Below, in pieces: positions 10,620 to 53,044 of a DNA stretch of 64,000 nucleotides. The stretch is from Erodium maritimum. Its lineage: Eukaryota; Streptophyta; Magnoliopsida; Geraniales; Geraniaceae. The position numbers were made by a program, and so were the translations under genes. Under the pieces are notes generated by a model. The model was not told where the DNA came from. It saw only the letters and a list, made by a program, of their open reading frames with translations, and ran no database searches. The stretch is taken from assembly GCA_963921825.1 (NCBI GenBank), contig OY997592.1, positions 53,278,336 to 53,342,335 on the forward strand, read 5' to 3'. How positions within the stretch are numbered: the first letter of the stretch is position 1; each line of letters begins with the position of its first letter.

Positions 10620-10928
10620 CAATTTAAGACATACTATTTGGGATTTAAGACGAATCAGATTAAACAATTAAGTTTGGTTACTATCGAAGGCTGAAGTGAA
10701 GTAGCTGCCCAATCAATAATGAGGGCATCTATAGCAAGTGGGAAAACTCTTTTTCATATTTCGGTCAGCAAAATGCAAAATGGAAGAGAGTAAAATAAAA
10801 ATAAAACTTGTTACCATCCAAGGCCAGACTTTCTATATATATAGGTGGCTGGAGCAGGTCAAAATATCTACATAAACATTCTCAACTTCATATATTTGAT
10901 AATCGTAACCAGTATTAAAATATAGATA
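10620..10928 (+). promoter_or_regulatory. MYB upstream region with TATA box
   Basis: The stretch between the retroposon tail and the MYB start codon is AT-rich. TATATATATA at 10834-10843 is a good TATA box about 90 bp upstream of the ATG, giving a 5' UTR of roughly 50-60 nt. The retroposon at 8262-10609 ends only about 320 bp upstream of the ATG, so the native promoter is short or the insertion lies inside it. Confidence 0.6.
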
Positions 10929-13630: not shown

Positions 13631-14340
13631 TTTTTTTTTAAACAGGCGACGAGGAATTATGTCCGAATATGTCCGAGCCTCTCGTATGACTCCCGACGCT
13701 CCTGAAACCGTAGAAATAACCAATTTTTCATCCTAGATAAAGAAGTAGATCCCTATGTCCTACCATTGTCAGGAAAATAAAGTACTGAAAGTAAAGGAAA
13801 TAACCTATAACAAAGTACTGAAAATAACGGAACTGACAGGTAATAAACTAAAAAGAAATAAACAGTAGATAGACGCCTCATGAGAGATCTTGTATTCCGG
13901 ATCAGCCTAGGATGCGTCGCAAGAAAAGCCTAGGATTAGCCCTCACTCACCACAAAAAAAGAAGAAGCTAAACCCTAATTTTCACAAACCATGAACAACA
14001 CATAATTGATACTCACCCGGTAATTCCCACAACCAGCAAAGCTCCGTCCAGGATTCTCCATCGTCCTCGAGGTGCGTATGGCTGCTGGAACTCCACAGTA
14101 GCAAACCAACTGTTCGAACTTCATGTTCTTCGGACTAGACCTTGTCGCCCTCGATTTCATCGACATCGAGCCACCAAACCAACATTCAGCTACCTGTCCA
14201 CACCACCACCGCCACAGACTTCCTATTTCTTTCAACCTCCGCGTCGACTTCGATGGAGAACTTCAGAATCGTGGATGCGAGCTTTAGGTGTCGTGAACTG
14301 AAGTTGAGCTAAGTATGGGTTAGAGGAAAGGGAAAGGTGA
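13631..14340 (-). mobile_element. Retroposon-like segment with T-run tail
   Basis: A T-run at 13631-13639 followed by sequence such as 'ctcgtatgactcccgacgct' looks like the 3' poly(A) end of a - strand retroposon, similar in layout to the one at 6143. It contains a short tandem duplication near 13782-13835 (AAAGTACTGAAA repeated). The 5' half carries a zf-GRF exon (14017-14166) with a downstream splice donor that is still present, so a spliced mRNA was not the source of that part. I found no target duplication, and the 5' edge is approximate. Confidence 0.4.
14017..14166 (-). pseudogene. zf-GRF zinc-finger protein, exon 1 only
   Basis: From an ATG at 14166 the frame gives 50 codons to a GTGAGT splice donor at 14016-14011. 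Residues 22-50 contain CYCG (22-25), TSRTMENPGRSF and GCGNY. This matches the first half of the GRF zinc finger (CxCG...TSxTxxNPGRxFxxC), a single-stranded nucleic acid-binding fold. The second half of the finger, normally in the next exon, is not found downstream, so it is a fragment. Short zf-GRF exons of this kind are common as plant genomic repeats. No function is expected. Confidence 0.6.
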
Positions 14341-14389
14341 TTGTGAGGGTATTTCAGTCTGTTCGCGCGAGTTAGTAAGCACGTAAGGG

Positions 14390-14516
14390 GCACATGCCTC
14401 TCTTTCCGTCCATTTTCTAACGTCGTCAGGGGCTGGGTACTAAAGTGACGGAAAATGCCATTCTAGAGTATTGAGGTGCCACTGAAAATAGTTAGGGTAT
14501 TGAGGTGAAAAAAATG
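14390..14516. repeat. Possible half of a foldback MITE
   Basis: This AT-rich stretch contains 'gggtactaaagtgac' and 'tagggtattgaggtg', resembling arm motifs of the MITE at 7803-8232 (for example 'acggtactgaagtgac'). No inverted partner is seen, and the stretch stops at the (TA)n tract where the next element begins. Confidence 0.35.
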
Positions 14517-14535
14517 ATATATATATATATATATA
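14517..14535. repeat. (TA)n microsatellite, boundary 1
   Basis: Nineteen bases of pure AT/TA repeat immediately left of the first terminal-inverted-repeat element in the cluster. Confidence 0.95.
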
Positions 14536-15056
14536 GGGTAGCTATCCAGTAAAAACCACCTTTATCGTGCAAACTACGAACCAATCTAAGCCATAGGATG
14601 CGGTCAAAGTGACGTCAGCAGAACGCCCCAGATGCTGACACGTGGCGCGCGCGCTGCTGGTGCATGTGCGCACACACAGTGCTGGTACACGCGCGCACAG
14701 TGCTAGTGCACGCGCGCACGGTGCTGATAGTTTACACAGCACAGTGCTGATAGTTTACATAGCACAGTGCTGATAGTTTAGTACAAATGCAACCTATCAG
14801 CACTTTTGTTCTAAACTATCAGCACCGTGCTATGCAAACTATTAGCACTCTGCGCGCGCACACCAGCAGCGGGCGTGCCTACGTGTCAGCATCTGGTGAG
14901 TTCGTAGTTTGCACAATAAGGTGCGGTGTTTTATATATTTAATTGCCCACGTGTCAGCATCTAGTGCGCTCTGCTGACATCACTTTGGGGGGATCCTATG
15001 GCTCAGATTGTTTCGTAGTTTGCAAAATAAGGGGTGGTTTGTACCTGATATCAACC
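14536..15056. mobile_element. (TA)n-flanked MITE, copy 1 (521 bp)
   Basis: The left end GGGTAGCTATCCAGTAAAAA and the right end on the - strand GGTTGATATCAGGTACAAAC continue as imperfect inverted repeats for about 100 bp, sharing AACCACC, TGCAAACTACGAA, CCATAGGAT, AAAGTGA, GTCAGCAGA and GATGCTGACACGTGG. The element sits exactly between two (TA)n tracts. The centre (about 14700-14880) has repeated 'gtgctgatagtttacatag' units and GCGCGC-rich DNA. It has no coding sequence. A second member lies at 26673-27187. Confidence 0.85.
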
Positions 15057-15071
15057 ATATATATATATATA
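15057..15071. repeat. (TA)n microsatellite, boundary 2
   Basis: Fifteen bases of AT repeat separate the 521-bp MITE from the 9.9-kb element. Confidence 0.95.
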
Positions 15072-15948
15072 ACCATTATCCAATGTAAACTATAGATTGA
15101 AATAAAAAATAAAAACTCATACCAGCCCTTAGATCCTACTCTATAGATGGCTGAGATCTTTTTGGTAGAAATGTTAATTATTTTGGTTTTACTTGTACAC
15201 TATTGTATTTGTATACCACGAAGGGTATTATAGACATTTGATGGCTTTTCAGTTTTTGTCTTTTCCCAACTACGCTGAGACCGTTCCTCCTCCGAACCAC
15301 GACCCGTAGTTCTCGAGCTTCAACTGCAATTGCAACTGCAACTTCAACTTCTAACAATAATGTTCCTCGATTCAGATATATCTTTGAGTTGATTAATATC
15401 AGAGTTTGAAAGTTTCCAGTATCGATTTTGGTTCTGATCTTTCTCAACCCAAGTAAGTGAGCTCTAGATTAAGGTATTTTTTGTGTAAACACAATGTGAA
15501 GTACCATTTTGCAATCTGAAATTCTTGTAGTCTTTAGGTGCTTAAGAGTGTTCAGGATTTCAATTTCTATTTCGGTTGCGAAGCTTCAGAACCCTTTTTT
15601 TCTGATTCATTGATGAGTTGCATGTTCAATGAAAATTCCATGTAGTCGTTAGGTGTTTAAGAATGTGAAGGATTCTCAATTTCTATTTCCGTTGCGAAGC
15701 TTCAGAACGCATTTTTTTATTCATTGATTGATGAGTTTTACATGTTCGTTTAATTTGTTTGTTTTGGTAGTCATGGTACGACTCAAAATGATCATTCGCC
15801 GGAAAGATGTTGCAAGGAAACGAGCTGCTGGATTGAGAATTTTGAAACGAGCTGCTACCAGGAAATCCCAAAGGTTGTTGTCTATTGCTAGCAATAGGGC
15901 TACAAAAGGTACTTTCTAGTACATATTGTCGACGTATTATTGTTGATG

Positions 15949-16570
15949 TTTTCAATTTCCCAATGCATATGTTTCAATTCATTATAATTACTGGTGTTTC
16001 CTTTTGCATATGAAGTTGGTGTTTTCAATTTCCCAATGCATATGTTTCAATTCTTTTGTAAATCAGTAGGGAGTAGTGAAACTCAACTTCTTTCAGTTTT
16101 GGTTTAGCTATAATTAATGATGTTTCATTTTTCCTCTGAAGTTGGTGTTTTCAATTTCTTAATAAATATGTTTCAATTCTTTTGTAAATCATTAGGAACT
16201 AATGAAACTCAACTTGTTTCAGTTTTTGGTTTAACTATAATTGAATTCATATGGAAATGCATAGTCGTTCATAACATGCATGTGCTTCTTACAATATGTA
16301 CTTGCAGATGTTTCATTTTGTGTTCTGAGTTGTTGTTTTTCAATTTCCTAATGCACATATTTCAGACTTTTGTAACTTATTGGGCAACAATGAAAATTTA
16401 AATCAATGTATGTGATTCTTTGTATGCATACATGTTTTTTGTAATTTAATTGTATGCAATGGTTTAATTAATTTCTTGTACACATTGGTTTGTATTCGAA
16501 AGTCTATTGTTTTTCATATATTTCAATTTCCTAAAGCATATGTTTCAATTCTTTTGTATATCAGTAGGAA
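15949..16570. repeat. Irregular repeats in the Ulp1-gene intron
   Basis: The phrase ttttcaatttcccaatgcat, with variants, recurs near 15949, 16022, 16147, 16337 and 16513. It is usually followed by 'atgtttcaattcttttgta' and a GTAGGxAxTxATGAAA block. Spacing is uneven (about 75-190 bp), so it is a set of degenerate repeats and not a clean array. Confidence 0.65.
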
Positions 16571-18644
16571 ATAATGAAAGTCAGTGTCACTATTAAACTT
16601 GTTTAGTTTTTTGTTTTAGTCATTCATAACATGCACCTGAGTAGTTCATTTCGAAAAGACAATTGGTATTAGTTCATTTTTATGCAGCTAAATCTCGTCG
16701 TTTTTTCTCTTGGATTCTGATTCTGATTTTGAGTCACCGTCAACTGATGCAGTACCAGAATCGAAAAAATCCCCTACACAACCACAATCGATCACACAAG
16801 TTCCAGAAGTCGATGATGATTCTGTTTTTGTTGTGAGCGATTCTTCTAGTTCTGATTCTGAGTATATTCCTGTGCAATCTTCTAGTAAGGTTGAAAAGAA
16901 GACGAGCCCTAAAATTGGAATGAAACGTATGATAATGAGTAAGAAGCATTATACGTCTCATTGAGGACCAGCTCATACCCATGTATCAAAGAAACCAAGA
17001 CGCATCCCTAACAAAGTCAAAATTGAAGAATGCGAGGTTAAGAAGGAATGTGTTGATGAAGTGAATGAAGATTCAGATAGCGGTAATAATAGCAATTGCT
17101 CTATACACTATCCACATCTAGAATCAAGAGGGTCACCATTGTCTTTGGTGAAGGTCATGACTCAGTTGAGTGAAGAGCAGAGGAAAGCTGTCCAAGAGTT
17201 AGGATTTGGATCAATCCTTGAGCTAGGTGTGCGCCAAATCCCTCGTGCACTAGCATATTGGTTGGTGCACCAATTTAACAGCATAAACTGTTCCATAACT
17301 TTGCCTGAAAGTCGTATTATTCACATTTCAGCAGTAGATGTGTATTATGTTTTTGATTTCCCTATGGATAAAAGGGTTGTTCCCGAGAAGAGACAAGATT
17401 TGTATGCTCCTGGATTTACTGAGTGGAGGGATAGTTATGGGCACGGGAAGTTTGCGGGGAACAACATACGTCCTAGTGATATTGGTGATAGAATGATGAA
17501 GACTCCAGAGGTCTACCCGCGGTTCACTAGAGATTTCATTTTAATGGTTATTAGTGTTCTAGCTGATTTTGGGGTGAGTCGGTTCGTTTCACTATCATAT
17601 TTTGACGCATTGGAGGATATGTCAATGATACATGAGTTTAATTGGTGCCAGTTCGTTGTCATGAAATTGATCGATCATAAAGAGAAGTACGAGTTGTCTA
17701 GTAAGGCTAGTAAGGCAAATCCTTGGTTTGGCGGACCTATCCTTTTTTAGTGGTTAGTATTACTTATTTCCTTTTTAATGTATGTCTTTTTTTATTACGT
17801 TGTTATTATTTCAACTCTCTAAATCACATGTTTCAAAACTGTATCCCCTTCTAAATTGTTTTCTTACTGTATTTTAATTTAAAAAATCATAGAGTTCAAC
17901 ACAAGATTTCAGTACATAATTTATTGTTGTTTCAAAAATATGCGTCTGATATTTCATATACAACGTTTGTAGCTGTTATATCTTGATCGGATGGAAATCA
18001 GAGGTCCTTCACCCATTCCCAGAGTTATTCCGACTTTTACTGGATGGACGTCAGAATTCATCCGAAAGATTGAACAATTCGAGATGGACAATGGTGGTTT
18101 TGGGAAAGGTTATTTGCTTGCACCACCTATTGATGCCCCAGATTCAATTTTCAGAAGCTTTAGACAAACAGTCCAACGTCCTGATGCTTCTAAAGGAAAA
18201 CGTAAAGTTGAGGAGGAGGAGGATGATGATAAGGTACAAGTATACACTAAAAAAATTCATTTTGTACAGGTTCATTTTTAAATAGATAATTAGTTATTTT
18301 TAATTTTTTAGTATTCAATAACAATTAGGAATTTTATGTAATAGGATGGGATTAAAGAGCTTTGCAAACTTGGTCGTGATGTTATAAATAGCGTTATCGG
18401 TTTTCGTGATCAATTGTCAACAAAAAAGAAGCAACATCCACATAGCATGACATTAAAACGTTTAGAAAAAGCATTTAAGCAGATGGTTGGGTGTCCATCG
18501 AGTCCGTTAAGCGAAGAGAATCCTGATGAGGGTGAAGATTCTTTTTGGGGCAATAAGATTTTATTAGATACTATTGACGCTTTCACATAGGTCATTATCA
18601 ATATGACTCCTACAAAGCCATCTCCTGAAAACAAGAAAGACAAG

Positions 18645-19028
18645 GATCCCATTGCTTCAAGATTTGATATTGGCAATTCTAGTCAGGAGATCAATACTGA
18701 TAGTGGATTTAAAATACCAGCTGTACCAGGGACAGTTACATCTACTGAGCTGGACAAGTCACATCCAACTTCATCTACTGTTCATACTCCTATATCATTG
18801 AATCGAGCTGCCGAACTTCGTTTCAAAGATCAAAGGGATCCCATTGTTGCAATGTTTGATATTGGCATTTCTAGTCAGGAGATCAATATTGATAGTGGAT
18901 TTAAAATACCAGCTGTACCGGGGACAGTTACATCTACTGAGTTGGACAAGTCACATTCAAGTTCATTTACTGTTCATACCCTTGTATCATTCAGTCAAGT
19001 TGTCGAACTCCGTAACAAAGATGAAAGG
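18645..19028 (+). repeat. 192-bp (64-codon) in-frame tandem duplication
   Basis: Units 18645-18836 and 18837-19028 both begin GATCCCATTG and encode DIGxSSQEIN and SGFKIPAVPGTVTSTELDKS. The period is a multiple of three and the frame stays open through both copies. The duplicated peptide lies in the low-complexity linker before the protease domain. Confidence 0.9.
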
Positions 19029-21559
19029 GGAATCAAGCTTCCTGCACCACTTGTATCTCCTTTTTGTGTTAGGGTTACTGATGTCACATCACCACTTAAG
19101 TATGATGAGAAGATGATTTTCCGATGGTTGTTGGCCAACAGAGTAAGTTTATAATGAGAACATCCTATAGTTTGTTATCTTATATATCCTCTTTATATTG
19201 TTATTAACGATGTTTCCTGTTCTTTTCACAGGATTTCAGATGCTATACGCAAAGAGTAAGATATTAAATTATTTTCTTAATAATTTGTTCAAGGTTTTGT
19301 CAGTATATATGATCCTTATTTGAATTTTCTTGTGTTCACATAGGCTGATGTATATAAAATATGGTGATACTTCTGTGCTGAAACATGATTTGGAGACGTT
19401 GGACATTGGATCTGAGGTTGATGTCAGTGTAATCAATGCATGGTGTAACTATGTTAACCATGAAGAAGTTCGGAGGAATCCAGATTCAGCTTCTAGATTC
19501 TGTTTCTCCGTAGATACAAGCGTATGTTCTTTTTTCTTTATAATTCGGTTGTTTCATAATATTATATATGCTAAAATAACGTCATACAATTTTACAATTC
19601 ATTTCAGCGTAAGATTTTGGCTAATGCGAACGATACTATTGTGATCGATCAGATCAAGTTTGAGTTGAATTATTACCCTAAGTTGAAGATCAAAATAGAA
19701 GATACTGACTTGGTATGTGAAACTTAAGTAGCTGAAAGTTAGTCTACATAACAATATTCAATACCTTCTCATATTATTTTTAGAATACTAATTCATATGT
19801 TTCATATTATTCTTCATTTCAATTTTATTAATTACGTATTCATTTATTCTTCTTTGTAGGTTTTTTTTCACTGTCATATTGGGGAAGCACTTTTTTGATG
19901 TTTGCATCGATCGTAAAAAACCATCTGTTGATATTATTGATAACCTCATTTCCGATTATACGGACAGTGAGCAATATGTGAAAGTAGTATACAAGCCGGT
20001 AAGTTTTCTCAACAGTTTTATACGTTCGTTTCCATGGATGTGACATTAACTAATATATATGATGCTTTTCTTTTGTACAGCGTGACATTTATGCAAATCT
20101 TATTGAAGACAAAAACATAAAATTGGAAAACAAAATTCGGAAGTTGGTGCCAAAACGCATCTCTCTTCCGTGGGCATCCAATTCAAATGTCATTGACTGT
20201 GGTATCTTTTCTATGTTTCACCTGGAGGCTTATATTGGTGGAAGTAAGTGGAAAAGTGTGCTTAAGAAAGATTGTGTAAGTGCATTCAAGTTTAGTACAA
20301 ATTTCATATGTTCTTCTTGTCATTATTTTGCCCATTTTTAAAAATGAATCTCGTTTTTTTTTCTTTTATAGGATGATCAGCTGGACAAGTTAAGAGTTTG
20401 ATATGCATACAGACTAATTACAAGCAAGAGGAATGAACTGTGGCCAGACATTGAAGCAAAGATCATCCAGTTTTTTCAAGCAATGAAGAAGCCATTACAT
20501 TTCAAGCTCAGGAAACGCGAATAGCTCGAACACATCTTTAGTTTCAGATATTACTTTAGTTATTTTTCACTTTATGGTTTGAACAAGTTTAATGTTTGTT
20601 TTTATGTTGGGTTAGTTTGATGTTATGTGGAACTAGCAGTATGTGTGTTTGGACATCTCGTATTTTAATTCATGTTTGTTGCTCAACATAGATTCATTTA
20701 CATGTTAAATTGTACCGTTTAAATTTTGTGCGAGTGTTCATTATATTATAGCTTACTAATATTTCAAACTTTACCCATACATTAATCAGCTTTATGTTAC
20801 ATAAGGGACTGAATTCTAAATAAGTTGCTAGTAAGTACTCATATAATTGAATCTCGACGTTGAGCAAACGGTGTCCACAATTTACAAATTTACAGTCATT
20901 GCATTGATAATGTTATGAAACAATTATCTTATGTGTTTGATTTGATCATAAAAAAATTTGATTTGCACTTCGAATGGAGGTAACGAACAAAGAAATTAAG
21001 CATTTGCTCTATCCGATTTCAATAGGGTGTGAATTTGAATTCAGTCGCTAAAGAATACTCATAGAATTGAAACCCGCCATTAAACACACGGTGTCCATAA
21101 TTTATAAATCTATTATCATTTCAGGGATAATGTTGTGAAACATCTATCTAATATCTATGATCATAAGAATATATTTGAAGTGCAACTCACAAATAAAAGT
21201 ATAACGCCAACAGGTTCAAAATTCCATACAATCTGAAACAATTCCACTCCACACTTATAATTAAGATATGTTAAATCTTTGTCAATATTTAAACTTAAAC
21301 AGTTAACTATTTTTTATTTCACATCATTACTCTTACAATGAAAATCAAAACTAAAACACTTCCCATAAACCATTCATCTTCATATAAAATCATAATTTAG
21401 ATTTATCAAAATACTAATAGAAATGAAAATAAAATGCACTAACATGTTCATATAAAATAGACATGATGTTCAAACAATACTAAATAGAATTCAAAATAGC
21501 ACACACCTAATTGTTCATATGAAATTTGTAGGTAATTCTAACATGTAATAATATAAGTT

Positions 21560-23935
21560 TTAGTCATACTTAACGGGACAGTTGCGCTTGTCATGCCAGG
21601 CTTTTTTGTGGCAGTTCCTGCAAACTCTTTTCTTCTTTCTCCCTTTCTTTTGCATTTGTTCAGTCACTGATCTCATTCGCTTTTTCCCTTTTGTGCGAGA
21701 TATATTTGGGACTTTCACCATTAATGTTTCTGGCATAGTCAGACCAGTCAGCTCTTCCAACATACTATTCTTGCTTTGTTCTGTACTAGCTTCATCACTT
21801 TCATCATTATCCATGGTGAAATTGTCAAGCATCTCTAACAAACTATTGTACCAGCTTGTAGTGCCATTTTGAGTCCCCATTAGTGCCTGCAACTTGCACC
21901 AAATCTTGTGTTTAACTTGCTGCAACTCAACACCGTCGTTTGTTGGAAAGCTTGCCTCAGTCAGTGCTACCACTTGCTCCCTACACCACCGCTGGTTTAT
22001 CAAAGTACGAGGTATCCTTGTAACAGTTGACGTTTGCAAAACATTTAAGATGTGGATACACATCAATCCACATCCCTCAAATCTTTTGCAGGTGCAAGTG
22101 CAATGGTTAGTCAATAAGTTTATGCAAGTTTCATATTCAACCTCTGAATCAATAAACTTTTTGGTATTTCTCGAATCCATTTTGGTGAGCACATCTTGGA
22201 CTCCATAATCAGCTTGGTATGGTTGTGTCTCTGATCATCCACCACAGTGTTGCACCACCAAATAAACTGAACTAATTGTTGTTTTTTTTCTTTACGTTTT
22301 CCATAAACACTATTCTCACCTTCAGATCTGGAAGTTGTTCTCATTAGGAGTCCCATTGGTGTTTCCTTGAAAAACGGTGCAATCCAAGATGCCCTCATGT
22401 TGTAAATGTCTGTCAGCCACACATTATCCTCCAGCTTAAACTCTTCAATGATCTTCATCCATTCACTCTCAAACTTTGAGATGCCCATTATTTCCCCAAA
22501 CAAGCTTGTATATTTTCTTGAAAAATGTAGTGTCCCTTAATGCCGGAAGTGGAACCTATTTATTCAGAGTAATAGGCAACTAATTAATGAAAAATTAACA
22601 AAAATAATATGAACATTTGATGATTTTGTTTGAAACAAATACACACATCACATGTGCACAGATTAGAATAAAAATCATATGAATAGTGTAATTACTACGA
22701 ACTACTTCATAATATATCTAAATCTAACTAGATAACTGGCACCAATAGGTAATGAACATGCTAACCTTTTTTTTCCAGCTTTTCCATAATATGCCAGATG
22801 CATAAACGGTGTATTGTGTTTCCAAGAACATCTTCTATTGCTTTTTTCATTGCAGGGTCTTGATCAGTCACTACAGTAATTGGTGGTTTGAAATCCATAC
22901 ATTTCATAAAACTTTGAAACAACCAAGTAAATGATTATGCATCTTCTTGTCCAAGTAATCCGGATCCTAAGGTAACACATTTGTTGTGATTATCAATACC
23001 TTTGAAAGGACAAAAAACCATCCCGTACCTGTGTTCCATATCGTAACAAGGACAAAGTAAATTAGAACTAAATTTTAATAGTACATTATCAAGTATGCAA
23101 CATATCATTATTTGGAATTTTACTTGTTGGTATTATAGGTTGTATCGAATGCAATTGTATCCCCATAGAGTTTGTAGTTTTCAATTGCCACACGGTGTGC
23201 CCAAAAAAGTTTTGAGAATCTACCTTCATGATCAACATCATGTTCAAAGAAAAATCCAGTGTTTTTGGAAACTTTTTCATGAAATGTTTGTAATACAAAA
23301 TGACCATCCGTCTCCCCCATGAACACTTTCAGATCACGCTCAAAGTTCAGAAAATCCATAACTGTTGCACCTACATTATGACTCCCTCCGACTCTTTGGC
23401 TCAACAATTTGTGTGCTTGTACTGGGCCTATAGCAACTCTGTAGCTGTCAATTATCCATTGTTTATGCGATGGTGTGAGGTTACGATTGTCTCGCAGAAA
23501 CTGTAGGTCGTGTATTTGGTAGAATTCGTGATTATGCTCCTCAACAAACTTGCTTACTCTAAAAGCTCCATTAGACACATAACTAAAGCTGATTCTTGCC
23601 TTACACCCTATTCTACCAGAAACACGTCTTTTCCGTATTGCTTTTCCATCAGATCTTGTTAGTTCGTTCCTTTTGCAATGACCTTCTTTGAAACAGTATA
23701 CATATTGAAATGTAACTACACCTCTCCTTTTGTTCTTTGTCCCCATTCGCGTACTAAATCCACATAGTATTGCATAATTCTTGTAGAATTTGATTCCATC
23801 CTCAAGACTTTCAAACACTTTCCTATGATGTGGCTTGTACTCATCATCACAATTTGGGATGTACAAGCTGTCCACTCGAGAAGGCAATGGCTCATCATTT
23901 TCACTCTCATCCGAAGAGCTACTCACTCCCATCAC
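21560..23935 (-). pseudogene. FAR1/FHY3-type MULE transposase, decayed
   Basis: The first exon (23935 down to about 23120) has an acidic start, then a FAR1 zinc-finger DNA-binding region (residues about 52-140, ending CKARISF...EEHNHEF), and at its end the beginning of the MULE catalytic domain (GDTIAFDTTYNTN, first catalytic Asp). After an intron, 23045-22757 encodes GMVFCPFKGIDNHNKC and VVTDQDPAMKKAIEDV (second Asp). The exon at 22503-22120 has the SEGENS segment. The last part (22192-21560) has a SWIM zinc finger, CTC then CGLMCIH, followed by a basic CxxC tail (VCRNCHKKAWHDKRNC). One in-frame stop follows GLLGQEDA near 22940 and there is at least one frame change near 22190. The family moves DNA by cut-and-paste in the nucleus. 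Confidence 0.82.
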
Positions 23936-24986
23936 AAGAGCTATTTGAGCTGCAACAATAGTTTTTTTTTTCAGTTAATAACATTATATGAAATTAAGGC
24001 AATGGAAAATTTAATAGTTTTCATATATCATTTGAAACATTAGTCAAACTAGAAATTGTATTTGTGCTAACAACATTATCAATATATTTCTTAGTCAGTG
24101 CACATATATCATCAATCATAGTCTGTGTGTAATATGTTCACAACTTCAAAAAATTTACTTCAAAGTCCAGGTTCTGAAACAAATAATCAAATGTTATGAA
24201 ACAACTTTAATTAAAAAGTTTAGTTAAAACTTTCAATCTTACGAAATAGTTTAAGATATCATCAACCATAGTCAATTGGTACTTTGTTCAGAACTTTTAC
24301 ATATTTATTTCAAACTTCAGAGTTCTGAAACATATTTTCCAAAATTATAAACAACAGTAATTATAAGTTTCAATCTTAGAACATTCCCATTTCATTTGTT
24401 TTTGTCATTCCACTTAAGTTTATGTATTTTGAAACAGTTGCTTATACAAATTGAAATCTTCCCCAAATTACAACCTGTACATTTGATACCAATAGACTAT
24501 TTTCCTAATCATAATTTTGTTTCATACTAACTATTTATGTGTGCACTACAAATATATAAACGAAACTACAATTTCTCTATCAGTGAATAATTTACAGTAC
24601 CCTGAATCATCTTCTAGTTCAAAAATATCCGCAAACATGCTCTCGTCTACAGTCTTCCGTCAAAAATCGAATGCCGCCATTTTTAAGAGTGCAAGTTCCC
24701 ACCGTAGAATTCAATTTACAACAACTTCCCATGTATAATGATCTACAACCCATGCTTTACGGTTCAAGGAATTGGGTTTCAGTTTTCGGCAGTTATGGGA
24801 GAAGTAGTGCGTTGGATTTCAGAAGCAAGAGAATTTTTTTGTTCCAGCCATGCCCTTTTACCCATTTATTAATTATTAAATTAATTAAATTGTTTAGATT
24901 TACAATCTTTAGATCTTCATTAATCCAATGGTTTAGATTGATTTTCATTTTATATGTTAGGTTTAGTTTACATTGGATAGTGGGCC

Positions 24987-25014
<28 letters not shown>
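24987..25014. repeat. (TA)n microsatellite, boundary 3
   Basis: Twenty-eight bases of TA repeat, the longest of the five tracts, lie between the 9.9-kb element and the next one. Confidence 0.95.
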
Positions 25015-25017
<3 letters not shown>

Positions 25018-26658
25018 ACACTATCTACTAGAAACCATTGATTTAATAAAAAATAGGGACTAAATGTGGCCACAGGATTAGAATATATGGATGAATGAGA
25101 TTAAACATGTCAGTAATGGCATAGACGTAAATAAATACAACTGTAAATGCATTTTAGACATTTAAAATGGAAATATAAAAGCTGATTGTTTACTGAACAT
25201 TTACTGAAGCGTCACTGTAGCAAATTAACTGTTTCATTTGGACGAAATGAATGTTTCATCTCCTGTTTTCATATCTGAGTCAATTGTTTCATTTGATTGA
25301 ACTAAATGTTTCATCTCCTAATTTCATAATTGATTTTAGTGAACTTTTATTTTGTCGAATCATATCTTTCATTTGATGAGTTTTTTGCCAGTTTGCAACG
25401 TTTCATTTGAATGAATATGTGTTTCATTCGTCGCATTTGATTTAGAAATAACTTATATCTCTGATATAATGTTTCATTTTGATGCACATGACGTTTCACT
25501 TGATCTGAGTTTCAAAATTTTCAGTTTACAAGTGTTTCATTTGAATCAATATAATGTTTCATTCGATGCTCAGCTAAACCAGTGTACGATGAGAACACAT
25601 TTTTTTAATAAGAAAACCAGTGTGCGATGAGAACAAATTAGAAACAACTAAACATTTGTTTTGTCAGATAGACAAACACGAATACAACTTAAGGAATTGA
25701 ATATTGGTGTGAGTTTTGGTTCTTCAAAACAACAACAAACTAATAATTGTTTTTACCATTCAAAACATGAATTATATCACAAAATGGAATCAGATATATA
25801 AAAAAATCAGTAAAAAATCAAGGCCTAGAACCCAAAAAGCCACATGAATTGTAGCTCTAAGTGAAATCGTTTCCATTCTAATGTTAAGAATTGTTTTGTA
25901 CTATTCTAAACATGAATCCATGCTCAGCTAGATCGAGATCCCTGGATCAGTGTACAAATATTGGAGAAGGAGAGGAGTGTATATCTGTTAGAACTCAAAT
26001 GACGGTCGGATACGGCCGCAACGAACTCAGATTCTTGCGCTCATTGGAGAGCGCGACGAAATGGCGCAGATCTGTTGAGGAGATCTCGGATCTGTACACG
26101 ACGGAGGCGATGCATAATGGTGGCAAGAACGGCGGAGGCTCATCTTCTCCGGTGGCATGGCGCAGTTGGAAGGCGAAACTGAGACCACAACGAGAAGTCA
26201 AAACGGAGAAGCCACAACCTGCTCATTCCTCCATGAAACACTACGGAACAATAAAGTTTGTCTGGGTTTTTGGTATACCTCGTATGAAACCGTAAAACCG
26301 TGATGCTTGGGTGAACTAACAAGCGGCGGTGGCGAAGATCGCGAGAACAAACCAGAGGCGGCGACTTCTTCGATGGGGCTCAACACCAGATTGGCGATGT
26401 GGGTTGTGCAAGAAAGAGGATACAAATAAATTAAACAGCTCAGGTGTGAAATAGGGTAGGGTAAAAAAGTAATGTAAGAGGACGAAAACACCCTTTATCA
26501 AGGATGAAATGACGAAATTAAAAACGAAAAATATTTAATATTACAGTCCATGCCATTATTAATATATTTAATCTCACCCATTAAAATTTATTCATCTAAT
26601 GATCACAAATGGGCCTTAGTTTGTATTAGAGTATATGGTTTTTAGTAGATTGTAAACC
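25015..26658. mobile_element. (TA)n-flanked non-autonomous MULE-like element, 1.64 kb
   Basis: The left end AGGACACTATCTACTAGAAA and the right end on the - strand GGTTTACAATCTACTAAAAA are inverted repeats sharing ATCTACTA.AAACCAT, and (TA)n tracts lie on both sides. Between about 25225 and 25570 the motif TGTTTCATTTGA recurs many times, as in the non-coding parts of the 9.9-kb element. A more GC-rich block at about 25980-26400 with a 134-codon frame (25891-26295) may be captured genic DNA or the remains of a 5' leader. I recognise no protein domain there. Confidence 0.7.
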
Positions 26659-26672
26659 TATATATATATATA
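26659..26672. repeat. (TA)n microsatellite, boundary 4
   Basis: A short TA tract between the 1.64-kb element and the second MITE copy. Confidence 0.9.
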
Positions 26673-27187
26673 ATATGTATCAAATACTAACCACCCCTTA
26701 TTGTGAAAACTACGGACTAATCTGAGGCACAAGATGTGTGCGCACTAACGTCATTAGGGCGCAAGATGCTAACGCATGGGCACTCCGCGCAATGATGCGC
26801 AAACCAAGTGTTGGTACCTTACCTAACATAGTGATGATATCTACATAGAGAGTGTTGATACCCACATAGAGAGTGTTGATACCCACATATAGAGTGCTGA
26901 TACCTACATACAGAGTGCTAATACTATACAAAGTGTTGGTCCTTACCTAACACGGTACTGGTACCTTACATAGCAAAGTGTTAGTACCTTGAATACACGG
27001 TGTTGGTACCTTATAAAATATGGAGTGCTGGTACCATACGTGATGCGTGCCGAGTCAAATGCGAGGGACGGAAAATGCCACGTATCAGCATCGCACACGC
27101 TTTGATGACGTTATCTTGGCCGCATCCTGTGCCTTAGATCAGTCCTTAGTTTACACAATAAGAATGGTTTGTATAAGATATCATTCT
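26673..27187. mobile_element. (TA)n-flanked MITE, copy 2 (515 bp)
   Basis: Both ends match copy 1 at 14536-15056. The left reads TATCAAATACTAACCACCCC then TTATTGTGAAAACTACGGAC. The right on the - strand has ATGATATCTTATACAAACCA and GGATGCGGCCAAGATAACGTC. The interior contains repeated 'gagtgttgatacccacata' units, the counterpart of the 'gtgctgatagtttacatag' units in copy 1. It is non-coding, and the two copies have diverged considerably inside. Confidence 0.82.
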
Positions 27188-27197
27188 TATATATATA
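27188..27197. repeat. (TA)n microsatellite, boundary 5
   Basis: A short TA tract closes the right side of the cluster. Confidence 0.8.
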
Positions 27198-27272
27198 AAA
27201 TTTATTGTGTATATCCAAAACTCCATGATGCCTTACACGATTAAAGCAAAGTCCATTTGTAATAGGATAGTT

Positions 27273-28117
27273 TTTTTTGAAACGGGAAAGAGGAAGTTGT
27301 ATTACGCTTTCATATCAGGATTACAAGGAGGGACATAACAGTCCCGGATACCAGCTTTTTGTCCCAACCGGCTGTAGCCCGTCGGGCGCACATGGTTCCA
27401 TACACATAGTCTGCTTTGATTCGCAGATCCGAACTCAAGAGTTCCTCTATCCAACGTTACAAGGAAATAACAAACCAAAGTCCTAAACTTATTGAGCCAA
27501 AAGGTTATTCGACCTAGCACAGTAAATAACCAATACTTTATTCGACCTAAAACAGGATAAAAAATTAGCACACGATCGAAAGAGCAGACTACCAAATCTG
27601 TGATGCCAGGTCTTCTAGGCCCCGTGCCATTGGAGCGAACTGGTATCGTCAATTCCTCGTCTTGATTCGCCCGGATCTTTCGAAGTAGTGCGGAAGACGA
27701 GAACATCGATTCGACCCGCATCGGTTTGTTCGAGATCGAGGGTCCCGACTTCGGGTGTCGTGGAGGCAGATCCCGGCTTATCGTCCATCCTCCCGGATCC
27801 AAGATCCATCGAGGGAACAGACCCATGCCGGCGTTAGGTGGCTCTGGGACGGGAGGCCGCTTCAGATGGAGGACGTCGCATAAAGCCCGTAACCCGGAGA
27901 ATGGCAGGAGGGCCACAGTGGCTGAGAGACGGCGATGACGGCGGCGGCGATGGACGGAGATGACGGCGACAGCGATGTACTACGATAACGGCGGCAGCGA
28001 AAGACGGCGATGGACGATGATGACGGCGGCGGCGGACCCTAAGTAGGGTATAAAGGACCTCACCTGAAGGTAGTGGAGAACCTTGAAGCCGGAGCTTCGA
28101 TGATGGAGGCAGGGAGC
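27273..28117 (-). mobile_element. Retroposon with perfect 15-bp target duplication
   Basis: TGTAATAGGATAGTT occurs at 27258-27272 and again at 28118-28132. The - strand 3' end is an A-run (T-run up to 27278). The 845-bp insert has a GC-rich 5' part with CGGCGATGACGG-type repeats, then an open frame of 204 codons (27916-27302) which I do not recognise; it begins MALLPFSGLRALCDVLHLKR and is likely derived from a LINE ORF1. It has no reverse transcriptase, so it must have been moved by another element. The exact duplication argues for a fairly young insertion. Confidence 0.88.
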
Positions 28118-36841: not shown

Positions 36842-36941
36842 GAGGAGGAGGAGGAGGAGAAGAAGAAGAAGAAGAAGAAGAAGAAGAAGAAGAAGAAGAA
36901 GAAGAAGAAGAAGAAGAAGAAGAAGAAGAAGAAGAAGAAGA
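36842..36941. repeat. (GGA)n/(GAA)n microsatellite
   Basis: About 100 bp of GGA and then GAA triplets, lying in the 5' half of the solo LTR. The run of Glu codons in one frame and Leu codons on the other strand is a by-product of the repeat. Confidence 0.95.
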
Positions 36942-53021: not shown

Positions 53022-53044
53022 TTTATATATATATATATATATAT
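53022..53044 (-). promoter_or_regulatory. TATA-rich core promoter of the EF-hand gene
   Basis: A (TA)n run of about 23 bp ending TATATAAAG on the - strand lies about 120 bp upstream of the ATG. It can serve as the TATA box, giving a 5' UTR of roughly 80-90 nt. Being a microsatellite, it is likely to vary in length. Confidence 0.6.

Follow-up and report, generated by a model that had tools for sequence, protein, structure and literature searches.

A stack of four Mutator-type elements joined by TA microsatellite tracts in the genome of Erodium maritimum

Introduction

How do four transposable elements come to lie end to end with nothing but TA repeat between them? The question is raised by a 64,000-nucleotide stretch of Erodium maritimum DNA (assembly GCA_963921825.1, contig OY997592.1, here C5, positions 53,278,336 to 53,342,335; hereafter the window), in which four elements with terminal inverted repeats (TIRs), here called E1 to E4, occupy positions 14536-27187. 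An earlier note, made from the letters of the window, had proposed that a single (TA)n-targeting family inserted repeatedly into one microsatellite. Having searched the 763-Mb assembly that holds the window, we consider it likely, with good confidence, that the array reflects four separate insertions of Mutator-like elements (MULEs) into one (TA)n microsatellite by ordinary cut-and-paste transposition with 10-bp target duplication. The array itself is no new phenomenon; it is a fresh example of a published one, in which one member is large and coding and the surrounding genome supplies clean evidence on mechanism. The route by which Mutator-type miniature inverted-repeat transposable elements (MITEs) enter TA microsatellites is stated to be unclear for carrot (PMC8227079). 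Young E2-family ends in TA, transposase-bearing relatives, 10-bp duplications, an uninterrupted paralogous site and a near-fixed repeat register all occur together in the present genome, which makes the cut-and-paste reading directly testable.

Results

Four elements separated only by TA repeat

The coordinates of the four elements and the lengths of the five perfect TA tracts that border them were confirmed as first described, and the spacers hold nothing else:

14517-14535, TA tract 1, 19 bp, left border of the array
14536-15056, forward strand, E1, a 521-bp MITE-like TIR element with long TIRs and an internal foldback
15057-15071, TA tract 2, 15 bp, spacer between E1 and E2
15072-24986, reverse strand, E2, a 9915-bp coding MULE of FAR1 type
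24987-25014, TA tract 3, 28 bp, spacer between E2 and E3
25015-26658, forward strand, E3, a 1644-bp TIR element with open reading frames
26659-26672, TA tract 4, 14 bp, spacer between E3 and E4
26673-27187, forward strand, E4, a 515-bp TIR element related to E1, with internal 21-bp tandem repeats
27188-27197, TA tract 5, 10 bp, right border of the array

Seven perfect TA tracts of at least 10 bp are present in the window, five of them the borders of the array and the others at 10834 and 53024. Across 200 dinucleotide-preserving shuffles such tracts numbered 0.15 on average and 2 at most, and none reached 14 bp, a length attained by five tracts in the window (four in the array and the one at 53024). 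Each element possesses its own TIR pair, with identities of 91/110 (E1), 77/115 (E2), 87/122 (E3) and 79/109 (E4); the corresponding local scores of 71, 29, 48 and 44 exceeded the maxima of 500 mononucleotide shuffles each (20, 24, 24 and 16), as expected of TIRs of the MULE superfamily, the margin for E2 being narrow (29 against 24). The E2 TIR consists of a near-perfect 20-bp core with a weak extension, and its left terminus lacks an extra GA or GG carried by its relatives. E1 and E4 are both short and alike in sequence. The ends of all four families are related: a sub-terminal motif, [AT]ATC-N5-8-N-AAC, was found at all eight array termini, whereas in the rest of the window 1140 of 102142 30-mers contain it, although this motif, like the end motif used below to score stacking, was composed after viewing the same flanks and ends.

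E2 carries a FAR1-type MULE transposase

A MULE transposase domain was identified in E2, and the FAR1, MULE and SWIM domains found within this element bear out the earlier assignment of its transposase to the MULE/FAR1 type:

23123-23974, reverse strand, N-terminal exon of the transposase, with a FAR1 DNA-binding domain (PF03101, 2e-15)
22764-23059, reverse strand, MULE catalytic region of the transposase (PF10551 on 22764-22934, 1e-13), with an in-frame stop at 22935-22937
21563-22234, reverse strand, C-terminal part of the transposase, with a SWIM zinc finger (PF04434, 1.1e-5)

A relative of E2 on C3 gives a stronger PF10551 match (1.8e-22), does not have the in-frame stop of the window copy, and retains 129 bp that are missing from the window E2 near 22159. 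With the stop and the missing stretch the window transposase is damaged, and E2 probably makes no working product and is probably inactive. Two transposase exons 96% identical to those of the window sit between E2-type ends on C3 and C6, the ends (13 and 25 kb apart) having been paired by position and a minor part of the interior read. Three left ends of the E2 family (L004, L006 and L007), all at TA tracts, are nearly the same: one on C3 and one on C6 share 99.8% identity over 558 bp, and another C3 end matches both at 99.4-99.6% over 478 bp.

The genome matches yielded no element that combines a transposase gene with true E1, E3 or E4 ends. Two E1 ends, at C1:13889703 and C1:100163713, do lie 1.3-1.5 kb upstream of FAR1 exons. 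A candidate autonomous E1 at C1:98010723, where an E1 end lies near a FAR1 exon, was rejected; the locus (L118) comprises a 491-bp E1 copy, (TA)13, and beyond it the terminus of another element, to which the exon belongs.

Most of the element ends read lie at TA tracts

We then surveyed the ends of the four families, scoring an end as TA-flanked when a perfect TA tract, 8 bp or longer, ended no more than 6 bp from it. The search matched 25 left and 21 right ends of E2, 45 left ends of E1 (the best 40 of at least 1391 first-look candidates scored), 41 of E3 (the best 40 of 136 scored) and 42 of E4 (the best 40 of 128 scored); genome counts for the large families are lower bounds. For E1 and E3 we read the first 20 ends after the window's own of the 40 scored, and for E4 30 of the 42 matches, the window's own included. 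The copies read are the most similar ones, and the sample leans to young copies; two loci that share one flank (L059 and L060) were counted twice.

A TA tract abutted 84 of the 116 ends read, or 81 of 113 without the window's own three copies, and most ends in each family were TA-flanked: 19/20 for E1 left, 21/25 for E2 left, 14/21 for E2 right, 13/20 for E3 left and 17/30 for E4 left. Control positions met the same definition in 0.1-0.6% of cases (856 of 152000 random far-flank positions, and 64 of 50851 window positions outside the array). The (TA)n targeting proposed in the earlier note thus held, whereas its single family gave way to several related ones. Exact matches to the 23-base E1 end numbered 533 in the genome (275 forward, 258 reverse); TATATATA lay within 4 bp of 228 of the 258 reverse-strand ends, with none in backwards-pattern controls. 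Each reverse match was taken as one end, as all listed rows show, and the forward-strand count (458) was left unused, as it counts many ends twice.

TA also occurred on the far side of many copies. Among the 20 E1 copies read, a right end was found in 15, and 11 of these had TA on both sides; three further E1 right ends (L079, L089 and L091) showed (CT)n followed by TA, the latter only a short run in L089, resembling the CT/GA repeats described for pineapple MITEs (PMC8449440). For E3, TA lay on both sides of 3 of the 9 copies with a right end among the 20 read, the nine including one probable wrong match (L101) and one right end cut by the end of the fetched stretch (L102).

Stacking is frequent and its partners vary

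Modular arrays were observed beyond the window: at 44 of the 84 tracts a second TIR-like end lay on the far side, whereas 1413 of 76000 positions drawn at random had one. None was found at the 14 sides of those TA tracts of the window that do not belong to the array. The remaining TA tracts of the fetched loci carried the end motif on 66 of 202 sides; since these may be further elements, they are no clean control. E1 ends also face one another across short gaps, as at C3:80667924/80667935 and C6:9087115/9087134.

The same tracts bear on the possibility that the microsatellite is more product than target, short AT-rich sites having been entered first and the TA having grown later through repair or slippage. 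Such expansion is compatible with cut-and-paste insertion and would account for perfect tracts of up to 64 bp at element ends and for the (CT)n that precedes TA at the three E1 right ends; for the maize element TAFTA, short empty TA sites and expanded flanks have been reported (PMC5907723). However, the TIR-like ends beyond 44 of 84 tracts indicate that elements did enter tracts of this kind, which were targets at least secondarily, and we regard expansion as an unlikely explanation of the array.

Could the four elements instead be parts of one larger element that transposes as a whole? Elsewhere, two copies of the E2 family (L003 and L006) do have an E1-like element beside the left end, and the two E1-like elements are oriented alike. 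They are 93.5% alike across 354 bp. Most of what lies beyond them is unrelated, and the end that they turn towards E2 is not the one that the window's E1 turns towards it, so that we do not read the pair as jointly moving. Moreover, every one of the four families recurs elsewhere beside other neighbours. The composite element, which the earlier note had named as one outcome that would overturn its proposal, was accordingly rejected, and we give it almost no credence.

Relatives outside perfect TA tracts show 10-bp target duplications

Copies in other sequence bear on how these elements insert. A relative of E2 on C7 is flanked on both sides by the same perfect 10 bp at a non-TA site. Seven E3 copies were without TA on the left; a right end was readable in three, all of which had a 10-bp duplication directly at the ends, and was not found in the remaining four. 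Two of the three duplications lie at non-TA sites, one perfect (L113/L136) and one with a single mismatch (L107/L130), and the third (L103/L126) is perfect and lies inside an imperfect TA-rich stretch. All four cases fall within the 8-11 bp expected of MULEs. The L113/L136 insertion, on C1, sits in a Copia copy for which the window itself provides an uninterrupted paralogous site: the Copia stretch at 61975-62209 matches the flanks of the insertion at 224 of 235 positions without a gap, and holds the 10 bp once. Outside perfect TA tracts, relatives of E2 and E3 behave like normal MULEs. No target duplication was seen for E1, whose readable copies lie mostly in TA.

These duplications weigh on two further explanations. 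The first is insertion of Tc1/mariner type with duplication of a TA dinucleotide, already disfavoured in the earlier note, from which even-register TA on both sides would also be expected. Neither the 10-bp length of the duplications nor the FAR1, MULE and SWIM domains of the E2 transposase agrees with it, and the possibility appears negligible. The second, proposed for the SaTar elements (PMC5907723), is that element circles, their ends joined by TA filler, enter genomic (TA)n through homologous recombination. Recombination would account for the variable tract lengths, the frequent stacking and the copies with one-sided TA, and the repeat register could be inherited along with the filler. Nevertheless, the exact 10-bp duplications in E2 and E3 relatives, one with its uninterrupted paralogous site, demonstrate that ordinary cut-and-paste is a route open to these families, and the even register at both E2 ends, described below, fits a 10-bp duplication with no extra steps. 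Recombination consequently seems to us improbable as the origin of the array.

Element ends lie in a near-fixed register of the TA repeat

The TA tract ended in A at the element (...TA|element|TA...) in 77 of the 84 cases: 21/21 at E2 left ends, 13/14 at E2 right ends, 19/19 at E1 left, 11/13 at E3 left and 13/17 at E4 left. Inside a perfect TA tract a target duplication leaves no visible trace, but one of even length should place both ends of the element in the same register. A limited look at the literature on (TA)n-targeting MULEs, in the excerpts available, found no report of a fixed TA register.

Discussion

We propose that the array arose by cut-and-paste insertion of MULEs whose transposase favours TA-rich palindromic sites. 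FAR1-type MULE transposases of this clan would prefer the palindromic target TATATATATA, TA-rich palindromic 10-mers would be cut in one register, and transposase for E1, E3 and E4 would be supplied in trans. Every insertion would then duplicate 10 bp of TA and rebuild the target on both sides, and because a landing site is left at each flank, arrays could lengthen end to end. More tentatively, and with more doubt than belief on our part, the transposase clan may itself read the register of the repeat: 10-mers of the form 5'-T...A-3' would be cut, TATATATATA would be the ideal palindrome, TA tracts would serve as self-renewing landing pads, and stacking would need neither recombination nor a circular intermediate.

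Several observations weigh against the cut-and-paste account. No adjoining perfect TA tract was present at 32 of the 116 ends, some of which abut imperfect TA, CT or TG repeats. Among the 30 E4 copies read, no target duplication in non-TA sequence was seen; 13 had no TA on the left, and where the right end was readable (8 of 13) TA was there in 7. Register at right ends was scored in E2 alone, and the right border of the window's E1 is in the opposite register (CC|ATAT). Mobilisation of E1, E3 and E4 in trans is proposed from the similarity of their ends. If recombination moved elements together with their TA, a uniform register could also be passed on in that way. Finally, no empty (TA)n site can be shown for this array, both of whose flanks are repeats.

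The closest known systems are likened to the array by their published descriptions. The SaTar elements, described from guayule, rice, sorghum and citrus, are likewise TIR elements of mixed families joined via (TA)n. Copies that lie outside microsatellites show 10-bp duplications, and the clusters contain related defective autonomous MULEs; guayule has 15 such families, in which the share of copies linked or fused to another element reaches 47% (PMC5907723). They differ in that the autonomous guayule element measures 5.3 kb and has 400-bp TIRs (PMC5907723), whereas E2 spans 9.9 kb, its TIR core is short and it holds a second open region. The MuTAnT and AutoMuTAnT elements of Medicago are MULEs too; they lie in (TA)n and include short non-autonomous members, and the AutoMuTAnT transposase resembles Jittery; their duplications are 9 bp and the autonomous element 4.9 kb, compared with 10 bp and 9.9 kb here, and stacked arrays were not seen in the results or discussion of that article (PMC4486113). 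In pineapple, the Ac-mMITEs (210-570 bp) lie in (TA)n, terminate in GA/TC next to GA or CT repeats, and show 9/10-bp duplications outside microsatellites; 46.1% of the full-length copies occur in non-nested clusters (PMC8449440). According to that account no autonomous element was found in pineapple, whereas the E2 family carries a transposase gene. A cluster of four, which the earlier note had called striking, is less so in view of the arrays already in print from guayule (PMC5907723) and pineapple (PMC8449440). Carrot MITEs in microsatellites (MiMs) are similarly Mutator-like and found in TA stretches, three families having putative autonomous relatives (PMC8227079). Micron of rice and TAFT of maize are described as (TA)n-targeting as well (PMC5907723, PMC4486113, PMC8227079, PMC12550479), and Micron-type MITEs have been surveyed in 207 plant genomes (PMC12550479).

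Further features of E2 and the window

E2 contains a further open segment:

16692-20338, forward strand, second open region of E2, several open reading frames on the strand opposite to the transposase

A ULP1-like region occurs in Mutator families of grapevine (PMC2528002). In the second open region of E2 the match to the Ulp1 protease domain PF02902 was below threshold (E 0.043, 14.1 bits, cutoff 20.7), and we do not claim it. A 192-bp tandem duplication, 88% identical, lies at 18644-19027 in the same region.

The first 100 bp of E2 (15072-15171) are 94-99% like those of its eight nearest relatives. Its right end (24887-24986) is only 76-82% like the right ends of those same eight elements, the nearest right end (92%) being at C5:52016744. 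This disparity between the two ends suggests that E2 is chimeric. A 5.4-kb relative of E2 (L077, C4:12469700-12475700) agrees with it over about 1.9 kb at the left end (96-97%) and roughly 130 bp at the right end (79%); its different interior, which has a 390-aa open frame, is possibly captured or inserted DNA.

To the left of the array, positions 14297-14514 form the end of another abundant repeat (at least 1227 first-look candidates), for which inverted ends occur at other places in the genome. Those copies that were read run past this point, the window copy being without the last stretch of that end, and the other end of the repeat was not found within the window. On the right, a further very abundant repeat (at least 1579 first-look candidates) occupies 27271-27417 onward, the listed matches mostly starting near 27271. 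Farther along, a perfect (AGA)28 tract lies at 36858-36941.

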